Positions 17,665 through 33,323 of a stretch of DNA of 64,000 nt are shown piece after piece. The notes under the pieces were generated by a model. The model had not been told where the DNA came from, ran no database searches, and was given only the letters and a program-made list of their open reading frames with translations. How positions within the stretch are numbered: the stretch's first letter is position 1; the number at the start of each line of letters is the position of its first letter. This stretch comes from Acidobacteriaceae bacterium (lineage in GTDB: Bacteria; Acidobacteriota; Terriglobia; Terriglobales; Acidobacteriaceae): contig PLHW01000071.1 of NCBI GenBank assembly GCA_003139095.1, forward strand, positions 1 through 64,000. Reading direction: 5' to 3'. The position numbers and the translations under genes are program-made.

Positions 17665-18975
17665 ATGCCGACTGACGTAGTCATGCCCCAGATGGGCGAA
17701 TCGATCTTTGAAGGAACCATCACCAAATGGCTCAAGAAGCCTGGCGACAAGGTTCAGCGCGACGAGCCTCTCTTCGAGATCTCCACCGACAAGGTCGATG
17801 CCGAAATCCCCGCTCCCGCCACTGGCGTCCTTCAGGAAATCAAAGTCTCTGAAGGCAATACCGTTCAGGTCAATACCGTCGTCGGCGTGATCGGAGACGC
17901 CAATGGCGCCTCCGCCGCTGCGTCAACTCCCGCCAAGCCCGCGGCCCCACCGGCCCCCGCAGTGAAAGAAGCGTCCGCTCCTGCGGCCCCAGTGCCCGCC
18001 CCTGCCGCATCGAGAGAGAAAGACGACGACGAATCTGACGTCCGCTCCTCCCCGCTTGTCCGCAAACTCGCCCGCGAGCACAACATTGATCTCGCTCAAG
18101 TCACCGGCACCGGTACCGGAGGCCGCGTCACCAAGCAGGACGTTCTCGATTTCCTCGCACACCGCGGTTCCGCTCCCGTCGCCGCGCCCTCAACCTCCGC
18201 GCCGGGTGCCCCATCCAAGCCCGGTGTTGGCTTGGGTGGGCCTGCGGCGCCCCCGCCGCCCGCTGCCATTCCCGGTGACCTCGTTCCTATGTCCCAAATG
18301 CGCAAAATCATCGCTCAGCGCATGATCGAGTCTCGCCGCACCAGCGCTCACGTCCACTGCATGTTCGAGGTCGACATGACCCGCATCGTCAACCTCCGCA
18401 ACAAACTCAAAAATTCCTTCGAGCAACGCCATGGCGCCCGCCTCACCTTCATGCCCTTTTTTGTACGTGCCGCCATCATCGCCCTTCAGCAGTTCCCCAT
18501 CGTCAACGCCTCCCTCGAAGGCGATAGCATCCGCTATCACAAGCACGTCAATGCCGGCATCGCCGTCGCCCTCGACTGGGGACTCATCGTGCCCGTCCTC
18601 AAAGGAGCCGACGAGCTCAACTTCCTCGGCCTCCAGCGTGGAATCACCGACCTCGGCGAGCGCGCCCGCACTAAAAAGCTCATGCCCTCCGACGTCGAGG
18701 GCTCGACCTTCACCATTACCAATCCCGGTCAATTCGGCGCCGTCTTCGGCCTGCCCATCATCAATCAGCCCAACGCCGCCATCATGGGCGTTGGCGGAAT
18801 CACCAAGCAACCCATGGTCGTCACCGACAAAGATGGCAGCGACTCGATCGCCATTCGTTCCGTTGTCCATCTAACCCTGGGCTACGATCACCGCATCATC
18901 GATGGCGCCATAGCCGACCAGTTCATGGCCGCAGTTAAGAAGACCCTGGAAACCTGGAGCGAAGACATTAGCTAG
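17665..18975 (+). CDS. 2-oxoacid dehydrogenase complex E2 (dihydrolipoamide acyltransferase)
   Basis: The protein has 436 residues. The start at 17665 follows AAAGGGAACT and gives the canonical N-terminus MPTDVVMPQMGES; the earlier start in the ORF track adds a non-homologous tail. The domains are a lipoyl domain (1-78, with lysine in EISTDKVDAEIP), a Pro/Ala-rich linker, a peripheral subunit-binding domain (about 132-168, SSPLVRKLAREHNIDLAQVTGTGTGGRVTKQDV), a second linker, and a catalytic acyltransferase domain ending in LGYDHRIIDGA, the HRxxDG active-site motif. It transfers acyl groups from E1 to CoA. The sequence alone does not settle pyruvate, 2-oxoglutarate or branched-chain specificity. 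No E1 or E3 gene is adjacent. Confidence 0.95.
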   Translation: MPTDVVMPQMGESIFEGTITKWLKKPGDKVQRDEPLFEISTDKVDAEIPAPATGVLQEIKVSEGNTVQVNTVVGVIGDANGASAAASTPAKPAAPPAPAVKEASAPAAPVPAPAASREKDDDESDVRSSPLVRKLAREHNIDLAQVTGTGTGGRVTKQDVLDFLAHRGSAPVAAPSTSAPGAPSKPGVGLGGPAAPPPPAAIPGDLVPMSQMRKIIAQRMIESRRTSAHVHCMFEVDMTRIVNLRNKLKNSFEQRHGARLTFMPFFVRAAIIALQQFPIVNASLEGDSIRYHKHVNAGIAVALDWGLIVPVLKGADELNFLGLQRGITDLGERARTKKLMPSDVEGSTFTITNPGQFGAVFGLPIINQPNAAIMGVGGITKQPMVVTDKDGSDSIAIRSVVHLTLGYDHRIIDGAIADQFMAAVKKTLETWSEDIS

Positions 18976-23471: not shown

Positions 23472-23511
23472 GTTAACTCCTGCTCGTTCACCGCTCACTC
23501 CTGACCTGACG
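23472..23511. repeat. Degenerate CTCCTG/TTCACC tract at gene end
   Basis: Sequence of the form TTAACTCCTGCTCGTTCACCGCTCACTCCTGACC lies immediately before the stop codon position of the tail tube-like gene on the minus strand. It is weaker than the other tracts of this kind but has the same placement. Confidence 0.4.
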
Positions 23512-24489
23512 TTAGTACAAGTCCGCCGCCGCCGCCGGAAAGTAACTCCGATAACACAACACTATTGCGGCGTCATTCCCGTCCGTCGTCGGCAGGGCCG
23601 CGAATGCCGCCGGCAGAGTTATCTCCTCGATAGGCTTCTGAATCTGTACCAACCCCTCTCGTGGCCACGCTGGTTTCGGGGTGCATGGACTTAGCAGCGG
23701 ATAGTAGAAGCACACGCGCCCGCCCGACTCTTCCTCCATCACAAACAGCCCCGACCACCTTTGCAGGAACGATCCCCCGTCGCGATCCACGAATGCAATC
23801 ACGTTCTGCACGGCTGCGCCCGCCGCCGGTACACCTCCCGGAAGCGCCTGGGCCAGAATCAATGACGTGCTGGTAATCTCCGCCACGCGTCCTACGTTGA
23901 ACGTAACTCGCCGTACATAATTCGCATCCTGTTTTACGTCTTCCGGGCTTGTGACGTATGCCGCCGCAATCCCCGTGCCCACATATCCGATCTGCTGCGC
24001 ATAATCTACGTCGCACGCCACAACGCGCCCGGTCCCGAATCCCGGGACTGCCGCCGCGCCGATCACTAACTCCTCTGCCGTTGATCCCGCAAGCAACGGC
24101 ACCGCCGCGATTGGCGCTCCGCCCGACCCCGCGGGCGCCGCGCCCGCCGCCGTCGCCAGCGCATTCATGTGTTCCGCGCCGCCCGCTAGCGCCATCTGTA
24201 ACTTTCCCCAATCCCGAAACTCGAACTCCACCCGCGCTCCCAATCCCCGTCGCGCCTGTCCCGTCACCGCTCCCGCCACTCCTCCGGGCAGTGCTTCGAT
24301 CTGCGTCGTGCTGGTTCGCGCAAAGTTCTCGATCCATCCCAGGTCGATCCACGGCGCCGGCGGCGCGTCCAACTCAAACCCCGCGCTCTGCGATGGGTCG
24401 AAAATCGCCGTCGGCCCGTTCACCGGGTCCACCGGCGCAAAATACGCGCGCGTCTTCCTCGCGACCGGTCGTAATCCTGTTCGTGTCAT
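23512..24489 (-). CDS. Tail tube-like phage structural protein
   Basis: The start is set at the ATG at 24489, which follows GCGGGAGC and overlaps the upstream gene by four bases. The ORF in the track begins 116 codons earlier in the wrong context. The 325-residue product (MTRTGLRPVARKTRAYFAPVDPVNGPTAIFDPSQS) has beta-rich composition (ARVEFEFRDWGKLQMALAGG, NYVRRVTFNVGRVAEITSTSLILAQALPGG, FLQRWSGLFVMEEESGGRVCFYYPLLSPC). Order and size suggest the tail tube or major tail protein. No catalytic motif is visible. The assignment is mainly by gene order. Confidence 0.6.
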   Translation of the reverse strand: MTRTGLRPVARKTRAYFAPVDPVNGPTAIFDPSQSAGFELDAPPAPWIDLGWIENFARTSTTQIEALPGGVAGAVTGQARRGLGARVEFEFRDWGKLQMALAGGAEHMNALATAAGAAPAGSGGAPIAAVPLLAGSTAEELVIGAAAVPGFGTGRVVACDVDYAQQIGYVGTGIAAAYVTSPEDVKQDANYVRRVTFNVGRVAEITSTSLILAQALPGGVPAAGAAVQNVIAFVDRDGGSFLQRWSGLFVMEEESGGRVCFYYPLLSPCTPKPAWPREGLVQIQKPIEEITLPAAFAALPTTDGNDAAIVLCYRSYFPAAAADLY

Positions 24490-25004
24490 GCTCCCGCTTT
24501 CGGCAAAAAGAAGTAAACTTTCAACTGCGCGTAATGCGCGATCCGTGCCGTTCCTGCGCTCCACTCCTGCTTCGCGATCGGCGTTTCTCCGGGATCGTTC
24601 CCCAACTCCGGCGCCGTCCAGAAAATTCCCGACCCTAAGTCCGCGCTCGGACTCTGGCTGTAGTCCATCATCTCGGCATGCGGCGGATCGCAGATTTGCA
24701 GAAGCTCCGCGTCCATTTCCGCCAACACGCGCCCCCGGTCTACTCCTGTCCCGCCGCTCCCCTCGCTCGCGTACCAGATTCCGCACTCGATTCCCAGCAT
24801 CGGCCGCGTGCTCTCCGCAATCAGTACTTCGCCCCAATCGACGTAAAACACCCCTGGCTGTGCTTCATTGAATCGCGGTTCCATGTTTTCCCGCACCACG
24901 ATTGCCGGAATCGTTACGCCGTCCATCACCATCGTCCGCCCGGGGTTGAGTGCGCTCAGTCGCTCCCGCAGCGCCACATAAAAACTGTCCTTTGCTGCCT
25001 GCAT
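24486..25004 (-). CDS. Phage neck/tail-completion-like protein
   Basis: The start is the ATG at 25004 after CAGGAG, 53 codons inside the tracked ORF. The 172-residue product MQAAKDSFYVALRERLSALNPGRTMVMDGVTIPAIVVREN has a first helix and then beta strands, and ends in AHYAQLKVYFFLPKAGA. It overlaps the tail tube-like gene by four bases. In siphophage-type gene order this slot usually holds a tail terminator or head-tail joining protein, which is the basis of the call. Confidence 0.55.
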   Translation of the reverse strand: MQAAKDSFYVALRERLSALNPGRTMVMDGVTIPAIVVRENMEPRFNEAQPGVFYVDWGEVLIAESTRPMLGIECGIWYASEGSGGTGVDRGRVLAEMDAELLQICDPPHAEMMDYSQSPSADLGSGIFWTAPELGNDPGETPIAKQEWSAGTARIAHYAQLKVYFFLPKAGA

Positions 25005-25070
25005 ATAGCTCCTGCTTCCGTAACCCACAAAACTAAGTCGACGAAACCGTAGCCAACTAAGTGCTCTTCG

Positions 25071-25103
25071 TTGATAGCTGACGGCTGATATCTGACGGCT
25101 GCA
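25071..25103. repeat. Simple-sequence tract, TGACGGCTGATA type
   Basis: TTGATAGCTGACGGCTGATATCTGACGGCTGC directly abuts the stop codon of the next minus-strand gene. Read on the other strand it gives GCAGCCGTCAG...CAGCCGTCAGCTATC, close to the tract in the 23S-5S spacer at about 258. Confidence 0.6.
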
Positions 25104-25104
25104 T

Positions 25105-25509
25105 TTACGCCACCGCCAGCACTCGATACAAATAAGCCACGCCCCCAAACCGCTCCACCACAAATCCCTCGATGTGAAACATGTCTCCCTGGTACACGAT
25201 CCCCAGCGCTGTCTCGAACAGCACGTCCGCCGACGCCACGTTTCTCTGGCTCACCTGCGGCGCCATCGCCGAGCGGCCCGCCAGTAGCTCAATCCGCCGC
25301 CTCGGCCCGTTACTCTCGGTCGTCAGCTCCCGGACCACCACCGGCGCGATCGCCGCCTGCTCTACACCCGGATCTACCAGCCCTAGTTCCGCCACCGCAT
25401 CGCCCGGCATCCCCGCCGCCGCAAACAGCATCACCACCTCGGTGCCGCCCAGGCTCCTCAACAGCGAGTCGGTTGCCCGCGCTGCCGCACATCCCGATAT
25501 CCCGGTCAT
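25105..25509 (-). CDS. Phage head-tail region protein
   Basis: The start is the ATG at 25509 (GGTGGGATGAC before it), two bases beyond the stop of the upstream connector gene. The product has 134 residues: MTGISGCAAARATDSLLRSLGGTEVVMLFAAAGMPGDAVAELGLVDPG, then SADVLFETALGIVYQGDMFHIEGFVVERFGGVAYLYRVLAVA. The C-terminal half is beta-rich. It lies between the connector and neck-like genes, so it is likely a head-closure or joining protein. No family is assigned from sequence. Confidence 0.55.
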   Translation of the reverse strand: MTGISGCAAARATDSLLRSLGGTEVVMLFAAAGMPGDAVAELGLVDPGVEQAAIAPVVVRELTTESNGPRRRIELLAGRSAMAPQVSQRNVASADVLFETALGIVYQGDMFHIEGFVVERFGGVAYLYRVLAVA

Positions 25510-25510
25510 G

Positions 25511-26134
25511 TCATCCCACCTTCTGCGCCACATAAGGCGCAAGCAGCTCCCGCACCGTGTCATCTAACAGGGTGTCGGCGAAGTACCAAAGCTGCATGTT
25601 ATTCATCACGCCCTTCTTCACGTTCAGCCCCGGCGTCGCCTGCGCGTTCTTCGCAATCTGCGCGCACGCCACCTTCACCGCATCCGGAAATGTCGCCCAT
25701 CCCGCGGTATACACAATTTCCAATTCATCGAACGCGAACGACAACGCATTGAGCGGCAGCGTCACTTCTCCCGTATCCCCGAAGTAATCTAGGTCCGCCA
25801 CGTTCAAGTCCAGCCACGATCCCGGGATCCCAAACGCCAGCGCGACATTCCACGACAGCTCGTCCTCCGCCCATTCCCCGCGTCTTGGCACCGCATACCG
25901 TGCCCGCGCCGAAACGATTGCCGACGTCGCCGGCGCCACCGCCGTCAGCGGCAGATATGTCAGCCGCACCGGTCTCTGTCCGTCTGTCCGCAAGCGCTCG
26001 GTGTACTGGTTCGCCGCGAGCGTCGCCCTCCGGCAATGCGAATCTACGATTGCCGACGCCCCCGTTATCCACGCAACGTCAGTCGTCGCTTCAAGCCCGT
26101 ACAGTTCATATTCCGATGGCTGCAAGTAATTCAT
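25511..26134 (-). CDS. Head-tail connector-like protein
   Basis: The product has 207 residues and begins MNYLQPSEYELYGLEATTDVAWITGASAIVDSHCRR, the helical opening seen in small gp6-like connector proteins. A beta-rich middle (GIPGSWLDLNVADLDYFGDTGEVTLPL) is followed by C-terminal helices (VKVACAQIAKNAQATPGLNVKKGVM). It follows the major capsid gene, the usual place for a head-tail connector that docks on the portal. It overlaps closely with the next gene. Confidence 0.68.
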   Translation of the reverse strand: MNYLQPSEYELYGLEATTDVAWITGASAIVDSHCRRATLAANQYTERLRTDGQRPVRLTYLPLTAVAPATSAIVSARARYAVPRRGEWAEDELSWNVALAFGIPGSWLDLNVADLDYFGDTGEVTLPLNALSFAFDELEIVYTAGWATFPDAVKVACAQIAKNAQATPGLNVKKGVMNNMQLWYFADTLLDDTVRELLAPYVAQKVG

Positions 26135-26308
26135 TTCTTATAACCTCTCCACGACCTTTGACTGCCTGCACCTTGACCGAGCGGAGTAAGTGAACTCGCC
26201 CTCCCTAACTCTCTAGCTTTGACTCAAAGCTCGCCCGGCATCGCCGGGTTACCTCCGCCCTCTGCGGACTTCTCTTCCATATCGGCACCACCAGGAAAGT
26301 CGCCCGGT

Positions 26309-26353
26309 TCTCAGTCCAAAACTCAGAACTGGGAACCGGGCACGGAGAACGAA
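26309..26353. repeat. Simple-sequence tract, CAGAACTGGGAACCGGG type
   Basis: GGTTCTCAGTCCAAAACTCAGAACTGGGAACCGGGCACGGAGAACGAA runs right up to the stop codon of the capsid gene. It belongs to the same degenerate family as the tract at 20641. Confidence 0.6.
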
Positions 26354-27325
26354 CTACCGTGTTACTTTCACTTCAAAGTGGGCGTACGACGCGCCCTTCA
26401 CCACCGGTGCCCCAAACTTCACCACCACGCTCTGCGTCATCAGCGAGCTCGGCAGCCCCAGCTTGAACACTCGCGGATTCGGATCCGTCAGCCAGTGATA
26501 CTCGATCAGGTCTTCCGTCACGATGTACGCCGGCAATGTCGCGGTCCCGCTTCCTGGCGTTCCCGTGTACGGCAGCGCCCACTCCGGAATCAGCGGTAAG
26601 TCGCCCGCCTGCGTGCTCAGCGTCTTTACGGTCAGTCCGCCGGTGATCTGCGTGGTCGTCATCACCACGTTGAACTCCGCCTTCATCTCCCGGTCGATCA
26701 GGTCCAGCAGCACCGGGTTCGCATAGATCGCGGTCGGCCGCACTTCAAACGAAGAACTCGAAACCATCTCCGCAATCGTGCTCTTGATTCCGTCCACGAT
26801 GCTTGATGTCAGCCCGATGTTCGTCGTGTTCCCGCCGGCCTCAATCTGCCCGATCACGCCGAAATACTGCGGGGTCGTCGGATTGCTCAGCGAAGTGTCG
26901 TTCCCGTTCCACAGCGCCACATCGTGCGTCCGCATCAGGCCTTCCACCGAGTCCGTCAGGTCTTTCGCCTGTAAGTACGCGAACTGGCTTTCTTGGCTCG
27001 TTACCTCAATGTCGAACAGGTTGTAGTTGATCTGCGACACCAGTGCCTTCAGCGGAACGCTCCGCTCCACCCGCGTCGGCGCCTGCAACGTCGGCTGAAT
27101 GTTTCGTGGATCCACGAACGCCTGCGCCGCGCTCGGCGAGGCGATCGCTGTTTCCTCGAAAAACCGCGACGGATGCCCGGTTGCCGGAACCTGCTTGATC
27201 CGCTGCCCAAACACGCCGCGCCGACGCACGATGTCAAAAATTTCCGTTTGATACCGGTTGATTTCAATGGCGCCCGGCCCAAGAAAGTCCGCCGCCGCAT
27301 GCAAATCCAAGAAATTCGCCTTCAT
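26354..27325 (-). CDS. Phage major capsid protein
   Basis: The product has 323 residues and its ATG follows GAGGAGATGAC. The sequence fits an HK97-fold capsid protein of the smaller kind: an N-terminal arm (LGPGAIEINRYQTEIFDIVRRRGVFGQRIKQVPATG), an E-loop-like segment with SRFFEETAIAS, a spine helix (ESQFAYLQAKDLTDSVEGLMRTHDVALWNG), and P-domain strands (VRPTAIYANPVLLDLIDREMKAEFN). It ends in AYIVTEDLIEYHWLTDPNPRVFKLG. It is preceded by the scaffold-like and protease genes and followed by the connector, which is standard order. It would form the shell of the virion or particle. Confidence 0.85.
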   Translation of the reverse strand: MKANFLDLHAAADFLGPGAIEINRYQTEIFDIVRRRGVFGQRIKQVPATGHPSRFFEETAIASPSAAQAFVDPRNIQPTLQAPTRVERSVPLKALVSQINYNLFDIEVTSQESQFAYLQAKDLTDSVEGLMRTHDVALWNGNDTSLSNPTTPQYFGVIGQIEAGGNTTNIGLTSSIVDGIKSTIAEMVSSSSFEVRPTAIYANPVLLDLIDREMKAEFNVVMTTTQITGGLTVKTLSTQAGDLPLIPEWALPYTGTPGSGTATLPAYIVTEDLIEYHWLTDPNPRVFKLGLPSSLMTQSVVVKFGAPVVKGASYAHFEVKVTR

Positions 27326-27442
27326 GTCATCTCCTCAATTGAGTTGTTGTTGCTCTGCCTTCTTCTCCCGCCGAGATCCTCGAACGCGGGGTAGTGCAAC
27401 CTGATCCCACGTGCTCGTCGCCGGCTTCCAATGCTCGCCGTC

Positions 27443-27471
27443 AAAATAAAAAGGGCGCGATCCCCGCGCCC
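27443..27471 (-). terminator. Rho-independent terminator (minus strand)
   Basis: GGGCGCG and CGCGCCC pair around a five-base loop and are followed on the minus strand by CTTTTTATTTT. It lies between the scaffold-like gene and the capsid gene. It may reduce scaffold-region transcripts reaching the capsid gene, or mark a separate capsid promoter downstream. Confidence 0.75.
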
Positions 27472-27479
27472 TCATGCCT

Positions 27480-27506
27480 ATCGACCAACCACTAACGACC
27501 AGCGAC
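27480..27506. repeat. Simple-sequence tract, CGACCAACCACTAACGACC type
   Basis: ATCGACCAACCACTAACGACCAGCGAC directly precedes the stop codon position of the scaffold-like gene. A related tract of CGACCAACGACGAACGACC type lies at the end of the 35663 gene. Confidence 0.6.
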
Positions 27507-27965
27507 TTACTCGATCATCCCCGCACGCGCTAACTCCGTTTTTACTGCGACCCGCTGCTCCACGCTCAACGCAGCCAGCGTCCTGTTCAGCACTGCCGGA
27601 TCGATCTTTTCTCCCTCGATTTCATTCTTCGCAATCAACGCGGCCACCACCGGGGACAGTGTCTTCCGCGCCATCCTTGCGGCCTGCGCCTTCAGGTCCG
27701 CATTCGATTTCTCGAGCTCGGCCACTCGCTGACTCAATTCCGAGGCCGCCAGGTCCGCCGCCGCTCTCGACTCACCCGCCGCCTCCAACTTCTGCCGCTC
27801 CGTTTGCGCGATCGACTCCTCCACCGCCGCCACGATTCGGTCCACTTTTGCGTTCAGCATCTCCTGCTGCGCGTCCAACTTGCTCAGCACTCGATCCAGA
27901 CTCTCCGAAGCCGCGGCCAATCGCTCTGCCGCCGCCACCATCTGATTCACCATCTCTTCATTCAT
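27507..27965 (-). CDS. Coiled-coil scaffold-like protein
   Basis: The start is the ATG in GGAGGATGAGGATGAATG; an ATG two codons earlier is possible. The product has 152 residues. Residues 1-110 are almost continuous heptad repeats (MVNQMVAAAERLAAASESLDRVLSKLDAQQEMLNAKVDRIVAAVEESIAQTERQKLEAAG, ASELSQRVAELEKSNADLKAQAARM), and a small C-terminal domain follows (TLSPVVAALIAKNEIEGEKIDPAVLNRTLAALSVEQRVAVKTELARAG). It lies between protease and capsid genes, where scaffolding proteins sit. It is not homologous to a named scaffold by eye. Confidence 0.65.
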   Translation of the reverse strand: MNEEMVNQMVAAAERLAAASESLDRVLSKLDAQQEMLNAKVDRIVAAVEESIAQTERQKLEAAGESRAAADLAASELSQRVAELEKSNADLKAQAARMARKTLSPVVAALIAKNEIEGEKIDPAVLNRTLAALSVEQRVAVKTELARAGMIE

Positions 27966-28116
27966 CCTCATCCTCCATAAGTTGGACCGCTCATTGCCGG
28001 TCAAAGTCGTCATAACCCCGCCGCTAGTACTCGCCGTATCACTTACGAAACCACATTTTGCCTTTTCCCTTTACCCGCGCCTTTGCCGGCCGGGGATACC
28101 GCGTCCACCCCCGTCG

Positions 28117-28863
28117 TCAAAGTCCTTCCTTGCCCACTGTGACGCCCGGCGCTGCGTCTACCAACTCAATCCATGTCGACATATATGCGGCCTTATCCCT
28201 CCGCAGCACTGCCGCGCCCGTGAATGTAACTCGATTTAAAACCCACACCGCTGCCTGAATATCCTCTACCAGCGCGTCCGCGATCTCATACGACATCCCT
28301 AATCCTGTCCCCGCGGCCCCCTCCTGTGTGGCGCGAAGACCGCGGTCCCCAGCGCGCCCGCTTTTGGCGTGATGGGGTGGAACGCTCGTGTCCGCGCGGC
28401 ATAGCCCGAACCGCGAGCCCTTGCCCGTGGCAATTGCATCCGCGGTCTTATCCGACGCCCGAGCCGCCCCTAGGCGACGGCCAACCGCTCCACTCAATCC
28501 CGTCTTTGGCGGCGTCGCGCTTCTCCCAATCTCCTCCACCATCTCCGGAAAGTCCCGTCCATATAGGTACCCTCCTACCTCGATCTCCCGTCCCACTATC
28601 TCCGCGCTCGTAATCACTCCAATCTTCCGGCGCGTATCGTGTCCATCTAGCCTGGGAGAATAGTCCAACCCCATCCCCAGCAACGACGGAATCGCCTCCT
28701 CTGCCGCCCTTCGCGCAAGTATCACCCGATGCCCCCGCGCTCCTGCGGGCGCCTTATCGGACGGCGAGTCCACCACGGTCAACACTCCCCGGAACGCCAC
28801 ACGATTCGGATGTCCGGCCACCGCCGGCATCCGAATCGCCATCGACTCCAATGAAATCCCCAT
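28117..28863 (-). CDS. Prohead protease-like protein with an internal insertion
   Basis: The start is the ATG at 28863, 31 codons inside the tracked ORF. The product has 248 residues. Residues 15-112 (VAFRGVLTVVDSPSDKAPAGARGHRV, GMGLDYSPRLDGHDTRRKIGVITSAEIVGREIEVGGYLYGRDFPEMVEEI) and 188-236 (LGMSYEIADALVED, VWVLNRVTFTGAAVLRRDKAAYMSTWIEL) fit a prohead maturation protease, with likely catalytic His75 and Ser191. Between them, residues about 113-187 are Gly/Arg/Ala-rich and unlike the rest of the fold, so they look inserted. If the insert is real, activity may be lost or altered. It precedes the scaffold and capsid genes as expected. Confidence 0.68.
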   Translation of the reverse strand: MGISLESMAIRMPAVAGHPNRVAFRGVLTVVDSPSDKAPAGARGHRVILARRAAEEAIPSLLGMGLDYSPRLDGHDTRRKIGVITSAEIVGREIEVGGYLYGRDFPEMVEEIGRSATPPKTGLSGAVGRRLGAARASDKTADAIATGKGSRFGLCRADTSVPPHHAKSGRAGDRGLRATQEGAAGTGLGMSYEIADALVEDIQAAVWVLNRVTFTGAAVLRRDKAAYMSTWIELVDAAPGVTVGKEGL

Positions 28864-28966
28864 TCCGATATCCCACCTATTCGAACAACTGACTTTCGAA
28901 CTTCTGACCAGAATCCGACACGTTCGACCGCGCCGTCGTCGACCTCTAACAGTCAACGCCTTGGCT

Positions 28967-28997
28967 TTTACTACTTACTTCTAACTTCCGACTTCTA
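28967..28997. repeat. Simple-sequence tract, ACTTCTAACTTCCG type
   Basis: TTTTACTACTTACTTCTAACTTCCGACTTCTAACTTCC spans the stop codon of the portal gene, so the last codons of the gene lie inside the tract. A related tract ends the DUF3037 gene at 30626. Confidence 0.65.
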
Positions 28998-30428
28998 ACT
29001 TCCCAAAATCTCCCCCAGCCCTCGTGCCCGTCGAACTTCATTCACCGTCAACACACCAGTGCGTAGTAAGATCTCGTCGATCTGCGCTTGCTCCATCTCA
29101 TCGGTTGCATCCACATCGGTGAATACGAACTCCAGGTCTGGCCATCCGAGCTTTTTCCCAATCGCATCTCGCGTCAGGTGTTCCGCGATCAGCCGTGCCG
29201 TCGGGACTACCGCCGACCGGAACGCCATCTCCGTCATCTCCGCCGCCGTCGCCCGGTTCACATCGCTTGTAACTCCCAGGAATTGTGCCGGTAAGTCAAA
29301 GGCGTCGGCAATAATCCGAATTAGAAACTCCTGCCAGGCCAGCCGGAGGTCTGCGTCGTTCCCCGCCGCGAACCGCAGCACCTCCGGCTTCGTCTCCGCC
29401 GACATAATTGGGACCCGCCCCGTCCCCTCAATCTCGTCCTGCCACCATCGGATCAGTCGCTCATGATTGGCCGGCGTTAGCCCTTGCAGCCACAGCGCAT
29501 ACTGCACCACCGAATTCGAAGCGAGCCGCCCCGCATACCGGTGCGCGCTCAAGAATTCATTGATCGTCTCGAACGCCACCTCCACCCGGCCCAGCCCAAA
29601 CGGCGTGTGCGTCCGCGGGTTCAGCCTGATATAACTCAGCTCATCGTCATTTAGTACGATTTGCCCCTCCGGCCCGTATAGTCCCGTTACCTGCACATAT
29701 CTCGCGGAATCCGGCCGCCCGTCCCAATCCGACATAATCCGAATCGTCGCCCCATCTACCGGCCACATAAGAAGAGGTGACGAAGGGAAAGCGGCCACGG
29801 GTTGGCGATGTGTGGGGCCGGGCGACGCGCCCGTCCAAGCCGACCGCAATTCAGCGGAAGGCAGTTTCCACCCTTCCACTAAATCCAATTCAATCGCCCC
29901 GAACCCGCCGACAATCACGTCCTCAAGCACCTGCTCCACAAACGACCGGAACGAATCGTCCGGATTCGGTGCTTCAAAAGTTTGCGTTAGGATCTGCGCT
30001 CGTAACGCTCCGTTCGGAATGTGGTCGATCGACCGTCCGCTTCGCGCCTGGATCCTCCACCGCATCCCCGCAATGCGGTCCTTAATAACATTGATCGCCC
30101 GCCTCGCAATCGGGGTCTCCGCAAACCTCCGCAAATTCGCTGGCGAAAGTTTCGGCAATGCCGAGTTTCCCGACCCACTCTTCGACCGCCCGCCCGCCCC
30201 AGGTAGCATCGACGAAGGGAATCCCGCAATTGAAAACGGGGCCAGGTTCGACCCCGTTCCCATCGTTCGCCGCCCACTTAGCCCTCGCGCAAGAAGATTA
30301 GTGTTACTTATCAGCGACTGAGTGGAGCTCTTCAACAACTGTGCTGATTGTGCGAGCAAGTTACTCGAGTTGCTAATAAGTGTCGTTGCCCGCCGCCTCT
30401 GTCTCGATATCCATTCCCGCACAGACAC
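28995..30428 (-). CDS. Phage portal protein with a possible insertion
   Basis: The product has 477 residues. A Ser/Asn-rich N-terminus (about 1-90) is followed by a typical portal body: LSPANLRRFAETPIARRAINVIKDRIAGMRWRI, EAPNPDDSFRSFVEQVLEDVIVGGFGAIELDL, LLMWPVDGATIRIM, YIRLNPRTHTPFGLGRVEVAFETINEFL and FLGVTSDVNRATAAEMTEMAFRSAVVP. The portal ring is the DNA entry point and head-tail junction. Residues about 186-220 (WKLPSAELRSAWTGASPGPTHRQPVAAFPSS) break the pattern between two conserved strands and look inserted. The start is a GTG near GGGAGAG; a second GTG lies two codons on. The terminase gene lies upstream, separated by the kinase/DUF3037 cassette. Confidence 0.85.
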   Translation of the reverse strand: MSVREWISRQRRRATTLISNSSNLLAQSAQLLKSSTQSLISNTNLLARGLSGRRTMGTGSNLAPFSIAGFPSSMLPGAGGRSKSGSGNSALPKLSPANLRRFAETPIARRAINVIKDRIAGMRWRIQARSGRSIDHIPNGALRAQILTQTFEAPNPDDSFRSFVEQVLEDVIVGGFGAIELDLVEGWKLPSAELRSAWTGASPGPTHRQPVAAFPSSPLLMWPVDGATIRIMSDWDGRPDSARYVQVTGLYGPEGQIVLNDDELSYIRLNPRTHTPFGLGRVEVAFETINEFLSAHRYAGRLASNSVVQYALWLQGLTPANHERLIRWWQDEIEGTGRVPIMSAETKPEVLRFAAGNDADLRLAWQEFLIRIIADAFDLPAQFLGVTSDVNRATAAEMTEMAFRSAVVPTARLIAEHLTRDAIGKKLGWPDLEFVFTDVDATDEMEQAQIDEILLRTGVLTVNEVRRARGLGEILGS

Positions 30429-30481
30429 CTCTCCCGCCCGGCGCGCATCGCCGCCAGGCCTATTTCATCTGATCTCAAAAC

Positions 30482-30540
30482 CTGTCATCTTGAGCGTGGC
30501 GGGGTAAGCGAAGCGCGCCCCGCTCAGTCGAAGGACCCCT
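30482..30540 (+). repeat. Dispersed GTCATC...GTCGAAGGACCCC repeat
   Basis: CTGTCATCTTGAGCG opens and CAGTCGAAGGACCCCT closes a 59-bp unit with an internal GC-rich inverted repeat (GCGGGG/CCCCGC). Two further copies in the same orientation lie at 33403 and 35511. It sits between the portal start and the terminator of the DUF3037 gene. Confidence 0.7.
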
Positions 30541-30590
30541 AAAGCCATGGCACGACCAAAAGGGGGAGTTCTCTCCGCCCGCTGTCCCCA

Positions 30591-30621
30591 AAAAAGCAAA
30601 CGGCGCAGCTTCCGCCGCGCC
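30591..30621 (-). terminator. Terminator after the DUF3037 cassette
   Basis: On the minus strand GGCGCGGCGGAAGCTGCGCC forms a stem with a four-base loop, followed by GTTTGCTTTTTT. It lies about 35 bases beyond the stop codon of the stand-alone DUF3037 gene. It would separate the kinase/DUF3037 transcript from the portal gene. Confidence 0.75.
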
Positions 30622-30625
30622 ATTT

Positions 30626-30656
30626 CGTAAGACTTCTTACTTCTGATTTCTTACTT
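30626..30656. repeat. Simple-sequence tract, TTACTTCTGATTTC type
   Basis: GTAAGACTTCTTACTTCTGATTTCTTACTTC runs into the stop codon of the DUF3037 gene. It is of the same family as the tract at the end of the portal gene. Confidence 0.65.
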
Positions 30657-31514
30657 CTAACTTCTCGTCTCTCTCCTTACCTCTTCCGCAATCTCCCCCA
30701 TCTCCCCAACATCCCGCACCGAAATCTCAGTCGCCCGCAGCATCGCCACTCCCGAAGCCACCTCGCCCCGTGCTCGCATCGCTTCTTCGCTGATCACCGC
30801 CGTCATCAGCGCCTCTTCACCCCGTCCCCGCATCCCCGATTGAATCCTCGAATACCGATACGCCATCGTTACCGCCGGCTCTCGGCTCAAATTCAGCGCC
30901 AGCGCGTGAAACATCTTCACCGCGCTCCCCACGCGAAATCCAAAGTCCACCACAAACGGATCGTTCTCTCCTGTAAACTCCCGCATATCCAGGTCGCGCT
31001 TCATCATCTCCAGCACGCCCGCCTCTGCGAACGCGTCTTGCATCCGGCCCACAATCCCCATTCGCCCCATCCGCCGTGTCCGCTCTCCTGCCTGCGCCAC
31101 ACCCGGCATCGGAGCCAAATAATCCCGCTCCAGCACTCGCATCTCCGCCATCGGATCGCTCGCCACCATCGCCTTCACCGGCCCCACATCGAACACCGTC
31201 CCAAATCTTTCTCCCAGCAATTGTGTCAACTCTTCCCGCCCGTGGATGTCCTTCAGTCGCTCCCGAATCTCTCTTTCCAGATGTTCAAAGATCGCAACGT
31301 CCAGATCCGGTGCAAAGCACTTCACCCGCTTCCAGTCCCGCGTCATCCGCAATTCTGCGAACCGGGGTCCACGGTCGGCGCGGTTTTCGCCCACTGGGGT
31401 GGAAGACTCGCCCCCCGGCTCCAGCACCAACACGCCCACGGTCATAAAATCGTCCCGCAAAGCGTGTGGCACCAACCGCAACAATAACAATTCAAGCTGC
31501 CGCGTATTCCCCAT
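30657..31514 (-). CDS. DUF3037 family protein
   Basis: The product has 285 residues. The N-terminal 130 residues (MGNTRQLELLLLRLVPHALRDDFMTVGVLVLEPGG, FAELRMTRDWKRVKCFAPDLDVAIFEHLEREIRERL, LLGERFGTVFDVGPVKAMVASDPMAEMRVLERDYLAP) fit the DUF3037 family. The rest (about 140-285) is helical and shares no motif I know. DUF3037 proteins are commonly encoded next to HipA-like kinases, and one lies two genes upstream. The N-terminus closely parallels that of the neighbouring DUF3037-S24 fusion, so the pair probably arose by duplication. A terminator follows. The molecular role of DUF3037 is unknown to me; an adaptor or antitoxin-like partner is inference. Confidence 0.8.
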   Translation of the reverse strand: MGNTRQLELLLLRLVPHALRDDFMTVGVLVLEPGGESSTPVGENRADRGPRFAELRMTRDWKRVKCFAPDLDVAIFEHLEREIRERLKDIHGREELTQLLGERFGTVFDVGPVKAMVASDPMAEMRVLERDYLAPMPGVAQAGERTRRMGRMGIVGRMQDAFAEAGVLEMMKRDLDMREFTGENDPFVVDFGFRVGSAVKMFHALALNLSREPAVTMAYRYSRIQSGMRGRGEEALMTAVISEEAMRARGEVASGVAMLRATEISVRDVGEMGEIAEEVRRETRS

Positions 31515-31607
31515 CGCCGATCGCGCCCTGAATCACCTTGCTGCTCTTACGAATACCCCAACTTCTCTGCGCCCAGCTTTCGTCACCGCCCGAGCTTTAC
31601 CTCCTCC

Positions 31608-32399
31608 TCAGTATCTCCGCATCACCCCAATCACCCGTCCCTGGATCTGCACCGATGGCCCCGGCACAACAATCGGCTCCATCTTCGAGTTCGACGGCTG
31701 CAGCCGAACATTATCTCCCTCCCGATAGAACCGCTTCAACGTAGCTTCCGCCGAATCGACCAGCGCCACCACCAGTTCCCCATCCCGCGCCGTCCTCTTT
31801 TTCTCCACCAGTACGTAATCCCCATCCAGAATCGCTTCATCCTGCATCGACTGCCCACGCACTTCCAGCGCATACATCTCTCTCGACGAGTACGCAATGT
31901 CCGCCATCGAAATGGTCTCGTTATTCTGGATCGCCTCGATCGGGCACCCCGCCGCAATCCGACCCACCAGCGGCAACGTAGTCGCCGTGTTCACCACCAT
32001 CCAATCCTTCAACTCCCGTTCCTTCGCAACCGCATTTTTCGGCGCCAGGTACATCGCCGTCAGCACATCCATTTCTCTTGCCGGATCCTCCGTCACCACC
32101 GCTTTCGTCGGCGCCACATCGATGCTCGTCCCGAATTTCTCGCCCACCAGTTGCACCAACTCCTCGCGCCTTTGCAGGCTCCCCAGTCGCGCCCGAATCT
32201 CCTGCTCCACTACCTCAAACCACTCCGTCTCCACGTCCGGCGCCACGCATTGCAGCATCTTCCAGTCGTGTGTCATTCGAACATCGGCGAACCCGCCGTC
32301 ACTCTCCCGCAGCAACAGTCCAACCGTCACGAAATCTTCCCGCAAAACATGCGGCAGAAATCGCAGCAGGTAAAGCTCGAGCTGTCGCCTCTCCGCCAT
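31608..32399 (-). CDS. DUF3037 fused to LexA-like S24 autoprotease domain
   Basis: The start is placed at the ATG giving MAERRQLELYLLRFLPHVLRED, which aligns with the start of the DUF3037 paralogue; an upstream TTG at 32507 is possible. The product has 263 residues. Residues 1-125 are DUF3037. Residues about 140-263 are a complete LexA-type S24 domain: cleavage site A150-G151 in RIAAGCP, Ser184 in RGQSMQDEAILDGDY, Lys222 in SAEATLKRFYREG, and the closing QIQGRVIGVMRRY. The spacing of these three matches LexA closely. There is no winged helix. Such domains self-cleave when RecA filaments form, so DNA damage could split DUF3037 from the tail (inference). It lies 118 bases after the kinase gene. 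Confidence 0.85.
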   Translation of the reverse strand: MAERRQLELYLLRFLPHVLREDFVTVGLLLRESDGGFADVRMTHDWKMLQCVAPDVETEWFEVVEQEIRARLGSLQRREELVQLVGEKFGTSIDVAPTKAVVTEDPAREMDVLTAMYLAPKNAVAKERELKDWMVVNTATTLPLVGRIAAGCPIEAIQNNETISMADIAYSSREMYALEVRGQSMQDEAILDGDYVLVEKKRTARDGELVVALVDSAEATLKRFYREGDNVRLQPSNSKMEPIVVPGPSVQIQGRVIGVMRRY

Positions 32400-32516
32400 C
32401 GACTCGTTGCCAGGCCTCAGCCTGCCTCGCCCCTTCGCCTTCCCCTGTGTCCAACTCTGTGGTTCAAAGTTTTTCTCAGTGATCTCCGCGAACTCTCCGG
32501 TTAACAAGGCCCGGCC

Positions 32517-33323
32517 TCACGCCTCCTCCCTCCACTCCGGAAACGGTCTCCGCGGCGACGTCCGAAACGCCTGAATCAACTCCCGCACTATCGCCCGCCT
32601 CTCGATCAGCCTCTGCACCAGCGCTTCCAACTCATCCCAACTTGCCCCATACCACGCCGGTGGTATCTCTCCCGCCACCCGCCAGATCGCGTCCTCCTCC
32701 AATTTCTCAATCCGCGTCAGCCACGGTTCAAACGACCCCCACCCGCTCACCTTCCCATATACCTCATTCCTCGGATATACCCCTCTCAGCGGAAAATCCG
32801 GAAACGTCCACTCCCCCGCATTAAAGCAATATCCCTGATCGATAAACGCCGCCGAATATTTCCTCTCCCGCAGCTTCCGCCAAAACGCCGCCTGCCGCCC
32901 ATCCGCGTTACAGGTCCACTTATCCAGCGCCAAGATCCCCGCAAACGTCTCCAGATTCCGCACCCGGTCCAGCATCTCCGGCGGCAGGTAATCGAACACC
33001 TGCCCCTCCACTGGACTCACCACAAACCGCGATCCAAACTGCAATCCCGCCTCCACCTGGATCGCGTTGCTCCCCAGCACGATCGTCAATTCCGGCGTAT
33101 GCTCCACCAGCCAAATCGAAACATCCACTACCTCCGCCACCGGCACCGGCAGTCCCACCTGCTCCGCCAGTCGCGTCGCCAAAAACTCGTTCGCCAGCAC
33201 CCGCTCATGCTGCGGATTATTCCGAAACTTCACCACATAATAATGACCATCCTCGCAGCGCATCAGATGGCTCTGCGCTCCGCCCCTCATCCTCTTCACG
33301 TGCTGTATCGCAGACGTTGACAT
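32517..33323 (-). CDS. HipA-like kinase family protein
   Basis: The product has 268 residues. It fits the short HipA-like kinase family usually found beside DUF3037 genes. Visible kinase features are the Gly-rich opening (RGGAQSHLM), Lys32 in YYVVKFRNN for ATP binding, Glu46 in LANEFLATRLA, a catalytic-loop-like LDKWTCNADGRQ (Asp134, Asn139, Asp141) and IDQG (Asp162) in place of the metal-binding DFG. It is shorter than HipA (about 440 residues) and lacks its N-terminal subdomain. Its substrate is unknown. It heads a three-gene unit inside the phage-like locus, between terminase and portal genes, with a 270-base upstream gap that probably carries its promoter. Confidence 0.82.
   Translation of the reverse strand: MSTSAIQHVKRMRGGAQSHLMRCEDGHYYVVKFRNNPQHERVLANEFLATRLAEQVGLPVPVAEVVDVSIWLVEHTPELTIVLGSNAIQVEAGLQFGSRFVVSPVEGQVFDYLPPEMLDRVRNLETFAGILALDKWTCNADGRQAAFWRKLRERKYSAAFIDQGYCFNAGEWTFPDFPLRGVYPRNEVYGKVSGWGSFEPWLTRIEKLEEDAIWRVAGEIPPAWYGASWDELEALVQRLIERRAIVRELIQAFRTSPRRPFPEWREEA

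Follow-up and report, generated by a model that had tools for sequence, protein, structure and literature searches.

So far, palindromic repeats that code for protein have been treated mainly as peculiar to Rickettsia and Wolbachia. They comprise the Rickettsia palindromic elements (RPE) and the Wolbachia palindromic elements (WPE) (Ogata et al. 2000, 2005; reviewed in PMC2229807 and PMC3767692). RPE lengths are given as 105-146 or 100-150 bp, and RPE/WPE insertions have been reported in solvent-exposed regions of proteins (PMC2229807, PMC3767692). Another class is represented by the REP sequences, imperfect palindromes of 20-40 bp which are present in many copies, some of them within ORFs, and are linked to Y1 tyrosine transposases (REP/RAYT systems; Di Nocera et al. 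2013, PMC3733652). In the acidobacterium Koribacter, TIR-type repeats with TIRYT genes have been reported (PMC3733652). Finally, bacterial MITEs with open frames include ERIC, YPAL, and the 107-bp Correia element, which are about 100-200 bp long and mostly TA-ended (PMC2229807).

The element described here was found in a group of soil and peat Acidobacteriota. It acts like RPE/WPE or intragenic REPs and yet appears to be a separate, shorter family. As in RPE/WPE, a short palindrome is dispersed in many copies, both between genes and in frame inside conserved protein genes whose orthologues are empty. Its unit of 45 nt (about 79 nt in the extended version), which is GC-rich, lies however outside the 100-150 bp given for RPE, from which it is set apart by its length. 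Its 31-nt hairpin with compensatory changes falls within the 20-40 bp palindromes of the REP type, whereas its consensus ends, TCCACCCC...GGGGACCCCGG, carry no visible GTAG or CGTC tag of the REPs named after these motifs. With ERIC, YPAL, and Correia it shares the nature of non-autonomous palindromic mobile DNA translated within host proteins, but it is shorter and without TA duplication. Literature text searches, whose coverage leaves out most subscription journals, gave no earlier description of this palindrome family in Acidobacteriota.

The stretch analysed (the window) consists of 64,000 nucleotides of an Acidobacteriaceae genome (contig PLHW01000071.1), and its features are collected in Table 1. 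It is very probable (roughly 85%) that the linker of a phage-type head protease encoded there includes a short palindromic element, mobile but non-autonomous, a copy of which was transposed into the gene. According to the proposed sequence of events, the 45-nt element would have landed in a disordered linker between the two halves of the protease fold, adding a short Gly/Arg/Ala/Pro-rich peptide. The reading frame would stay intact, since the unit corresponds to 15 codons, usually without stop codons. The protease core is probably unaffected because the insertion site already tolerated length change; this tolerance of the loop would have let the insertion persist, and it is probably neutral for the protease.

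Table 1. Coordinates of the features discussed (window positions unless a contig is given).
Feature	Position	Strand	Basis or remark
Length-variable, predicted-disordered linker, aa 113-186	28306..28527	-	relatives' lengths and pLDDT
45-nt palindromic element unit GCGTTCCACCCCATCACGCCAAAAGCGGGCGCGCTGGGGACCGCG	28341..28385	-	in-frame translation SVPPHHAKSGRAGDRG
Palindrome core, 12-nt arms and 7-nt loop	28347..28377	.	loop AAAAGCG on minus strand
Extended element version, ~60-79 nt	28322..28400	-	common to a subset of congener copies, e.g. L075, L078
Second window copy, exact in-frame 45-bp insertion	31364..31408	-	in DUF3037 gene 30657-31514
Third, more distant window copy, related CCCC..AAGCC family	18197..18244	-	26 bits, E=2e-5 (held-out model)
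Capsid maturation (prohead) protease-like gene, phage-type	28117..28863	-	248 aa; AlphaFold core and Foldseek
Phage portal protein, upstream of protease gene	28995..30428	-	PF04860, E=4e-44
Putative major capsid protein, downstream of protease gene	26354..27325	-	gene order only
Congeners with protease-E2 linkage	G007:C42, G010:C211, G016:C162, G018:C261, G020:C57, G022:C7		window region 23500-33300

The protease is not recognised by sequence, as Pfam, PHROGs, and a PDB sequence search all gave no match. By gene order it is placed between the portal and major capsid genes, the latter without a Pfam match, and a coiled-coil-like gene also lies downstream. The cluster of head genes gives the impression of vertical inheritance, as a domesticated or gene-transfer-agent-like unit, and not of a recent prophage. 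In the AlphaFold model, computed from 22 sequences, the core is predicted with confidence, 132 residues having a pLDDT >=90. The best Foldseek matches of this core are herpesvirus assemblins and the T4 prohead protease gp21; these matches have E-values from 1.7e-3 and probabilities up to 1.00, with TM-scores of only 0.2-0.35. The window protease thus resembles assemblin and gp21 in its folded core, whereas it lies below sequence detection and carries a long disordered insertion. Context and predicted fold make the identity as a prohead protease well supported, if short of proof. His75 and Ser191 are invariant and are probably the catalytic pair. An earlier note on this DNA had placed an insert-like segment between the catalytic His and Ser; the conserved residues do lie one on each side of the linker, and their catalytic role is presumptive. 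The protease gene and an E2 acyltransferase gene are found about 7-10 kb apart on one contig in at least six congeners, where the protease is 70-76% identical.

The linker is bounded by the motifs 'DFPEMVEEIG' and 'LGMSYEI' and joins helix 106-114 to strand 188-199 in the AlphaFold model, where residues 125-173 and 175-183 have pLDDT below 50. An insert at residues 113-187 or so, separating two well-formed parts of the fold, had been noticed from the sequence, and the confident core interrupted by a disordered linker agrees with it. Homologues with both halves of the protease were collected from the same genus or family (15) and from a GTDB-based collection (27), the genomes of the two sets partly overlapping. 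The spacing from DFP to GMSYE is 84 residues here versus 29-36 in seven congeners, so that the comparison with homologues suggested by the earlier note came out in favour of an insert. Across wider relatives the spacing ranges from 14 to 99 residues, being 14-16 in many distant ones and 54, 63, and 99 in three other genera. Because it varies so widely, the linker is best seen as a naturally expandable loop; since it is hypervariable anyway, the insertion point in the protease is not fixable to the base.

The excess over most congeners amounts to about 48 residues (144 bp). The 45-nt unit covers approximately one-third of it and the ~79-nt extended version approximately half. The element therefore accounts for only 15-26 of the 48 excess codons, leaving about 22-33 codons (65-100 bp) of sequence that is single-copy at the sensitivity used. 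The codon statistics of the linker are abnormal, as expected for the suspected insert: the GC content at second codon positions is 0.73, compared with 0.40-0.56 in the genes nearby, and the score for synonymous codon use lies below that of 99.95% of equal-sized samples from the rest of the protease gene. The 5' part of the linker at 28495-28520, where 26 nt match two congeners at 96%, may be a degenerate copy of a second palindrome family, though it had no score with the held-out model. An intein or intron in the protease was discarded, in our judgement, on size and because no such sequence is present.

The element unit is composed of about 8 nt, a 31-nt hairpin, and about 6 nt. The earlier note had pointed to the palindromic look of GTGTGGCGCGAAGACCGCGGTCCCC, which is present at 28326-28350 on the plus strand but forms only the flank of the true palindrome, given in Table 1; it had also rightly described the segment as in frame, since the unit is read in frame within the 248-aa product. 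To avoid circularity, a covariance model was trained only on copies from other genomes. This held-out model detects the protease copy at 28335-28385 with 65 bits (E=2e-17 in the 64-kb window). A pattern search of the own genome found the palindrome at 5 places, and the reversed control at none. The aligned consensus is TCCACCCC-ATCAC-GCC-AAAACCG-GGC-GTGCT-GGGGACCCCGG, with 12-nt arms, a loop starting with AAAA, and a conserved 3' ACCCCGG. The stem covaries: 90% of its cells are paired, while slid registers are all 35-49% paired, and compensatory changes affect 4 pairs, with 12 double-changed cells against 4.7+/-1.4 in shuffles. Taken alone, the protease copy has no folding advantage over shuffled sequence (z=-0.40), and for this reason the evidence for the element consists of homology and covariation, not of folding energy. 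Rfam gave no match at 27500-29500.

When the linker DNA was searched against 24 genomes of the same genus, more than 70 matches were obtained, nearly all to the same 42-76 bp, and partial copies were found at other places in the own genome. The core is thus repeated across the genus and is not single-copy. Matches to a covariance model of the element occur in 21 of the 24 same-genus genomes, where one genome may contain as many as about 40 copies, and in 13 of the 19 further genomes of the taxonomic family in the phylum sample; outside this family, weaker matches are scattered through the phylum. The homologous protease genes themselves are empty (0 of the 15 fetched). Most of the 37 copies from two congeners (G003 and G009) are intergenic and about 5 lie inside real genes, as judged by eye, so that insertion into coding sequence is a minority outcome in these genomes. 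Of the seven best matches to the own genome, five are in gene sequence, including one in a RAYT remnant. The hypothesis of the earlier note, a small dispersed element taken into coding sequence, was largely right; it holds for 45-79 bp of the segment of about 220 bp, the rest being single-copy.

The precision of the insertion is best seen in other genes. In the own genome, a net 15 codons interrupt the MnmA motif 'MPESV(Q)GRCCS', which hardly varies among 19 congeners; the 19 orthologues compared are empty. The DUF3037 copy (held-out model at 31357-31407, 50.5 bits, E=5.5e-13) is absent from the orthologues and from the adjacent paralogue at 31608-32507, and removal of the 45 nt restores GGC GGG TTC, to be compared with the orthologous GGC GGG TTT. 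Congener G003 has exactly 45 nt inserted within 'IPGD/LVPMSQ' of its E2 gene, and the orthologues in the other aligned congeners are empty. The net insertion is exactly 45 bp, or 15 codons, in each of these three empty/filled comparisons, in which the length was measured; some other hosts contain larger composites. Going by Pfam, in-frame copies are placed within a domain or between two domains in TopA, a beta-eliminating lyase of the threonine-aldolase type, MnmA, MnmE, Lhr, and UbiD. Further in-frame hosts, recognised by Pfam span or homology, are an aconitase-family protein, a molybdopterin oxidoreductase, an FmdE-like protein, and a BrnA-like antitoxin (the last by eye). The UbiD copy and that in the E2 acyltransferase gene of the own genome (G000) are members of the related CTCAAGCC family; the latter is the third window copy, read in frame within the gene at 17665-18975 (+), where it lies in the linker that precedes the catalytic domain. 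The two DUF3037-type paralogues adjoin each other, only one containing the element, and a HipA-like ORF (named by eye) follows at 32517-33323. The gene for the Lhr helicase has an in-frame copy at the identical position in two species (L086, G001:C27; L121, G010:C219), and G003 and G009 have a common copy in a membrane-protein-like ORF (L169, L189). These shared copies indicate that insertions can be old enough for inheritance across species.

By the author's reading of the translations, the host genes between them use all six frames of the element: PPHHAKSGRAGD in the protease, PPHQAKTGLAGG in TopA, HPSKPKAGSLGA in MnmA, SSTPVGENRADRGP in DUF3037, RGPQTARFSPTGVED in E2, GAPVEPGFGLTGW in MnmE, and PGSPARPLLARWGG in the membrane-protein-like ORF, which has no Pfam match. 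This makes selection for a peptide function unlikely. Stop codons are rare in the element, and its 15-codon length and scarce stops are what make it tolerable. A bolder possibility, which we hold with reserve, is that a non-rickettsial lineage hosts an element tuned for life inside genes, exactly 15 codons long with nearly all six frames open. If this were true, insertion in any frame or strand would add 15 residues without a break, and conserved proteins would gather copies at tolerant sites. More generally, exact empty and filled sites are now available in an environmental phylum with large genomes, and some of the linkers annotated in proteins of Acidobacteriota may be mobile DNA that is translated. 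With 24 congeners and three copies in one window, it becomes testable whether drift lets such frame-preserving insertions persist as selfish DNA or whether they supply proteins with new segments.

Since the element is a single short hairpin without coding capacity, a transposase acting in trans is needed. An enzyme of the RAYT/Y1 type, which would move the element as a single-stranded hairpin, is the leading though tentative candidate, because the own genome has three PF01797 matches (Y1_Tnp, RAYT-like) and because the Y1_Tnp/RAYT gene on contig C47 is surrounded by many palindromes of a related family, while a RAYT remnant close by contains one copy of the present family. None of the three genes was seen bounded by the exact present palindrome family. 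A competing view concerns the enzyme only: a DDE transposase might move the element in the manner of a classical MITE, as its inverted arms of 12 nt and a GAC direct repeat at the G003 E2 site would allow. This GAC is a possible 3-bp duplication that could equally be part of the element, and no clear target-site duplication is found at the mnmA or DUF3037 sites. Such a mechanism seems somewhat less likely, for the whole element is one hairpin, as typical for REP-like elements, the genome has a Y1_Tnp gene surrounded by related palindromes, and an unsystematic look noticed no parent DDE element with matching ends. In two species the element lies in a RAYT gene just after the (I/M)HRNP motif (L065 3629-3659, G000:C47; L120, G007:C146), and the downstream PVKRGL part runs on in another frame; this transposase gene seems broken at one site by its own kind of element.

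It could also be supposed that the linker is an ordinary fast-evolving disordered segment, grown by slippage and drift, in which the palindrome match is incidental. The range of 14 to 99 aa among relatives, the presence of two other genera with long linkers from which the element is absent, and the single-copy state of at least roughly half of the local excess would all fit this explanation, which nevertheless is improbable for the segment as a whole. It is largely refuted for 28341-28385: a model from other genomes detects the element there at E=2e-17 in 64 kb, and the same unit is elsewhere precisely inserted in conserved, non-variable sites such as that of MnmA; for the remaining part of the linker it stands. 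That the insert is a selected functional module, such as a regulatory or self-cleaving part of the protease or an operon-regulating RNA hairpin, is very improbable. In its favour, the loop lies between the conserved His and Ser, the protease presumably processes itself, and a hairpin is possible in the mRNA. However, the insert is missing in every congener although the protein is otherwise 70-76% identical, has no conserved peptide with six frames in use across different genes, and belongs to no Rfam family; in folding, the window copy does not surpass shuffled DNA.

Beside the transposed element favoured here for the protease gene, other repeats were observed. Some copies (L081, L176, L193, L195, L202) form part of larger composites that include other repeats, such as TTCGCTCAGGATGAC, which codes for 'SPVQAEHTG'; composites of this kind are in frame also in MnmE and the molybdopterin oxidoreductase. 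A second, more abundant palindrome family, CCCCACTCAAGCC-7nt-GGCTTGARTGGGG, occupies 27 places in the own genome. It is clustered round the RAYT genes on C47 (G000:C47:12358-16284), arranged in tandem on C9 (G000:C9:228733-228923), and present at about 15 further places.
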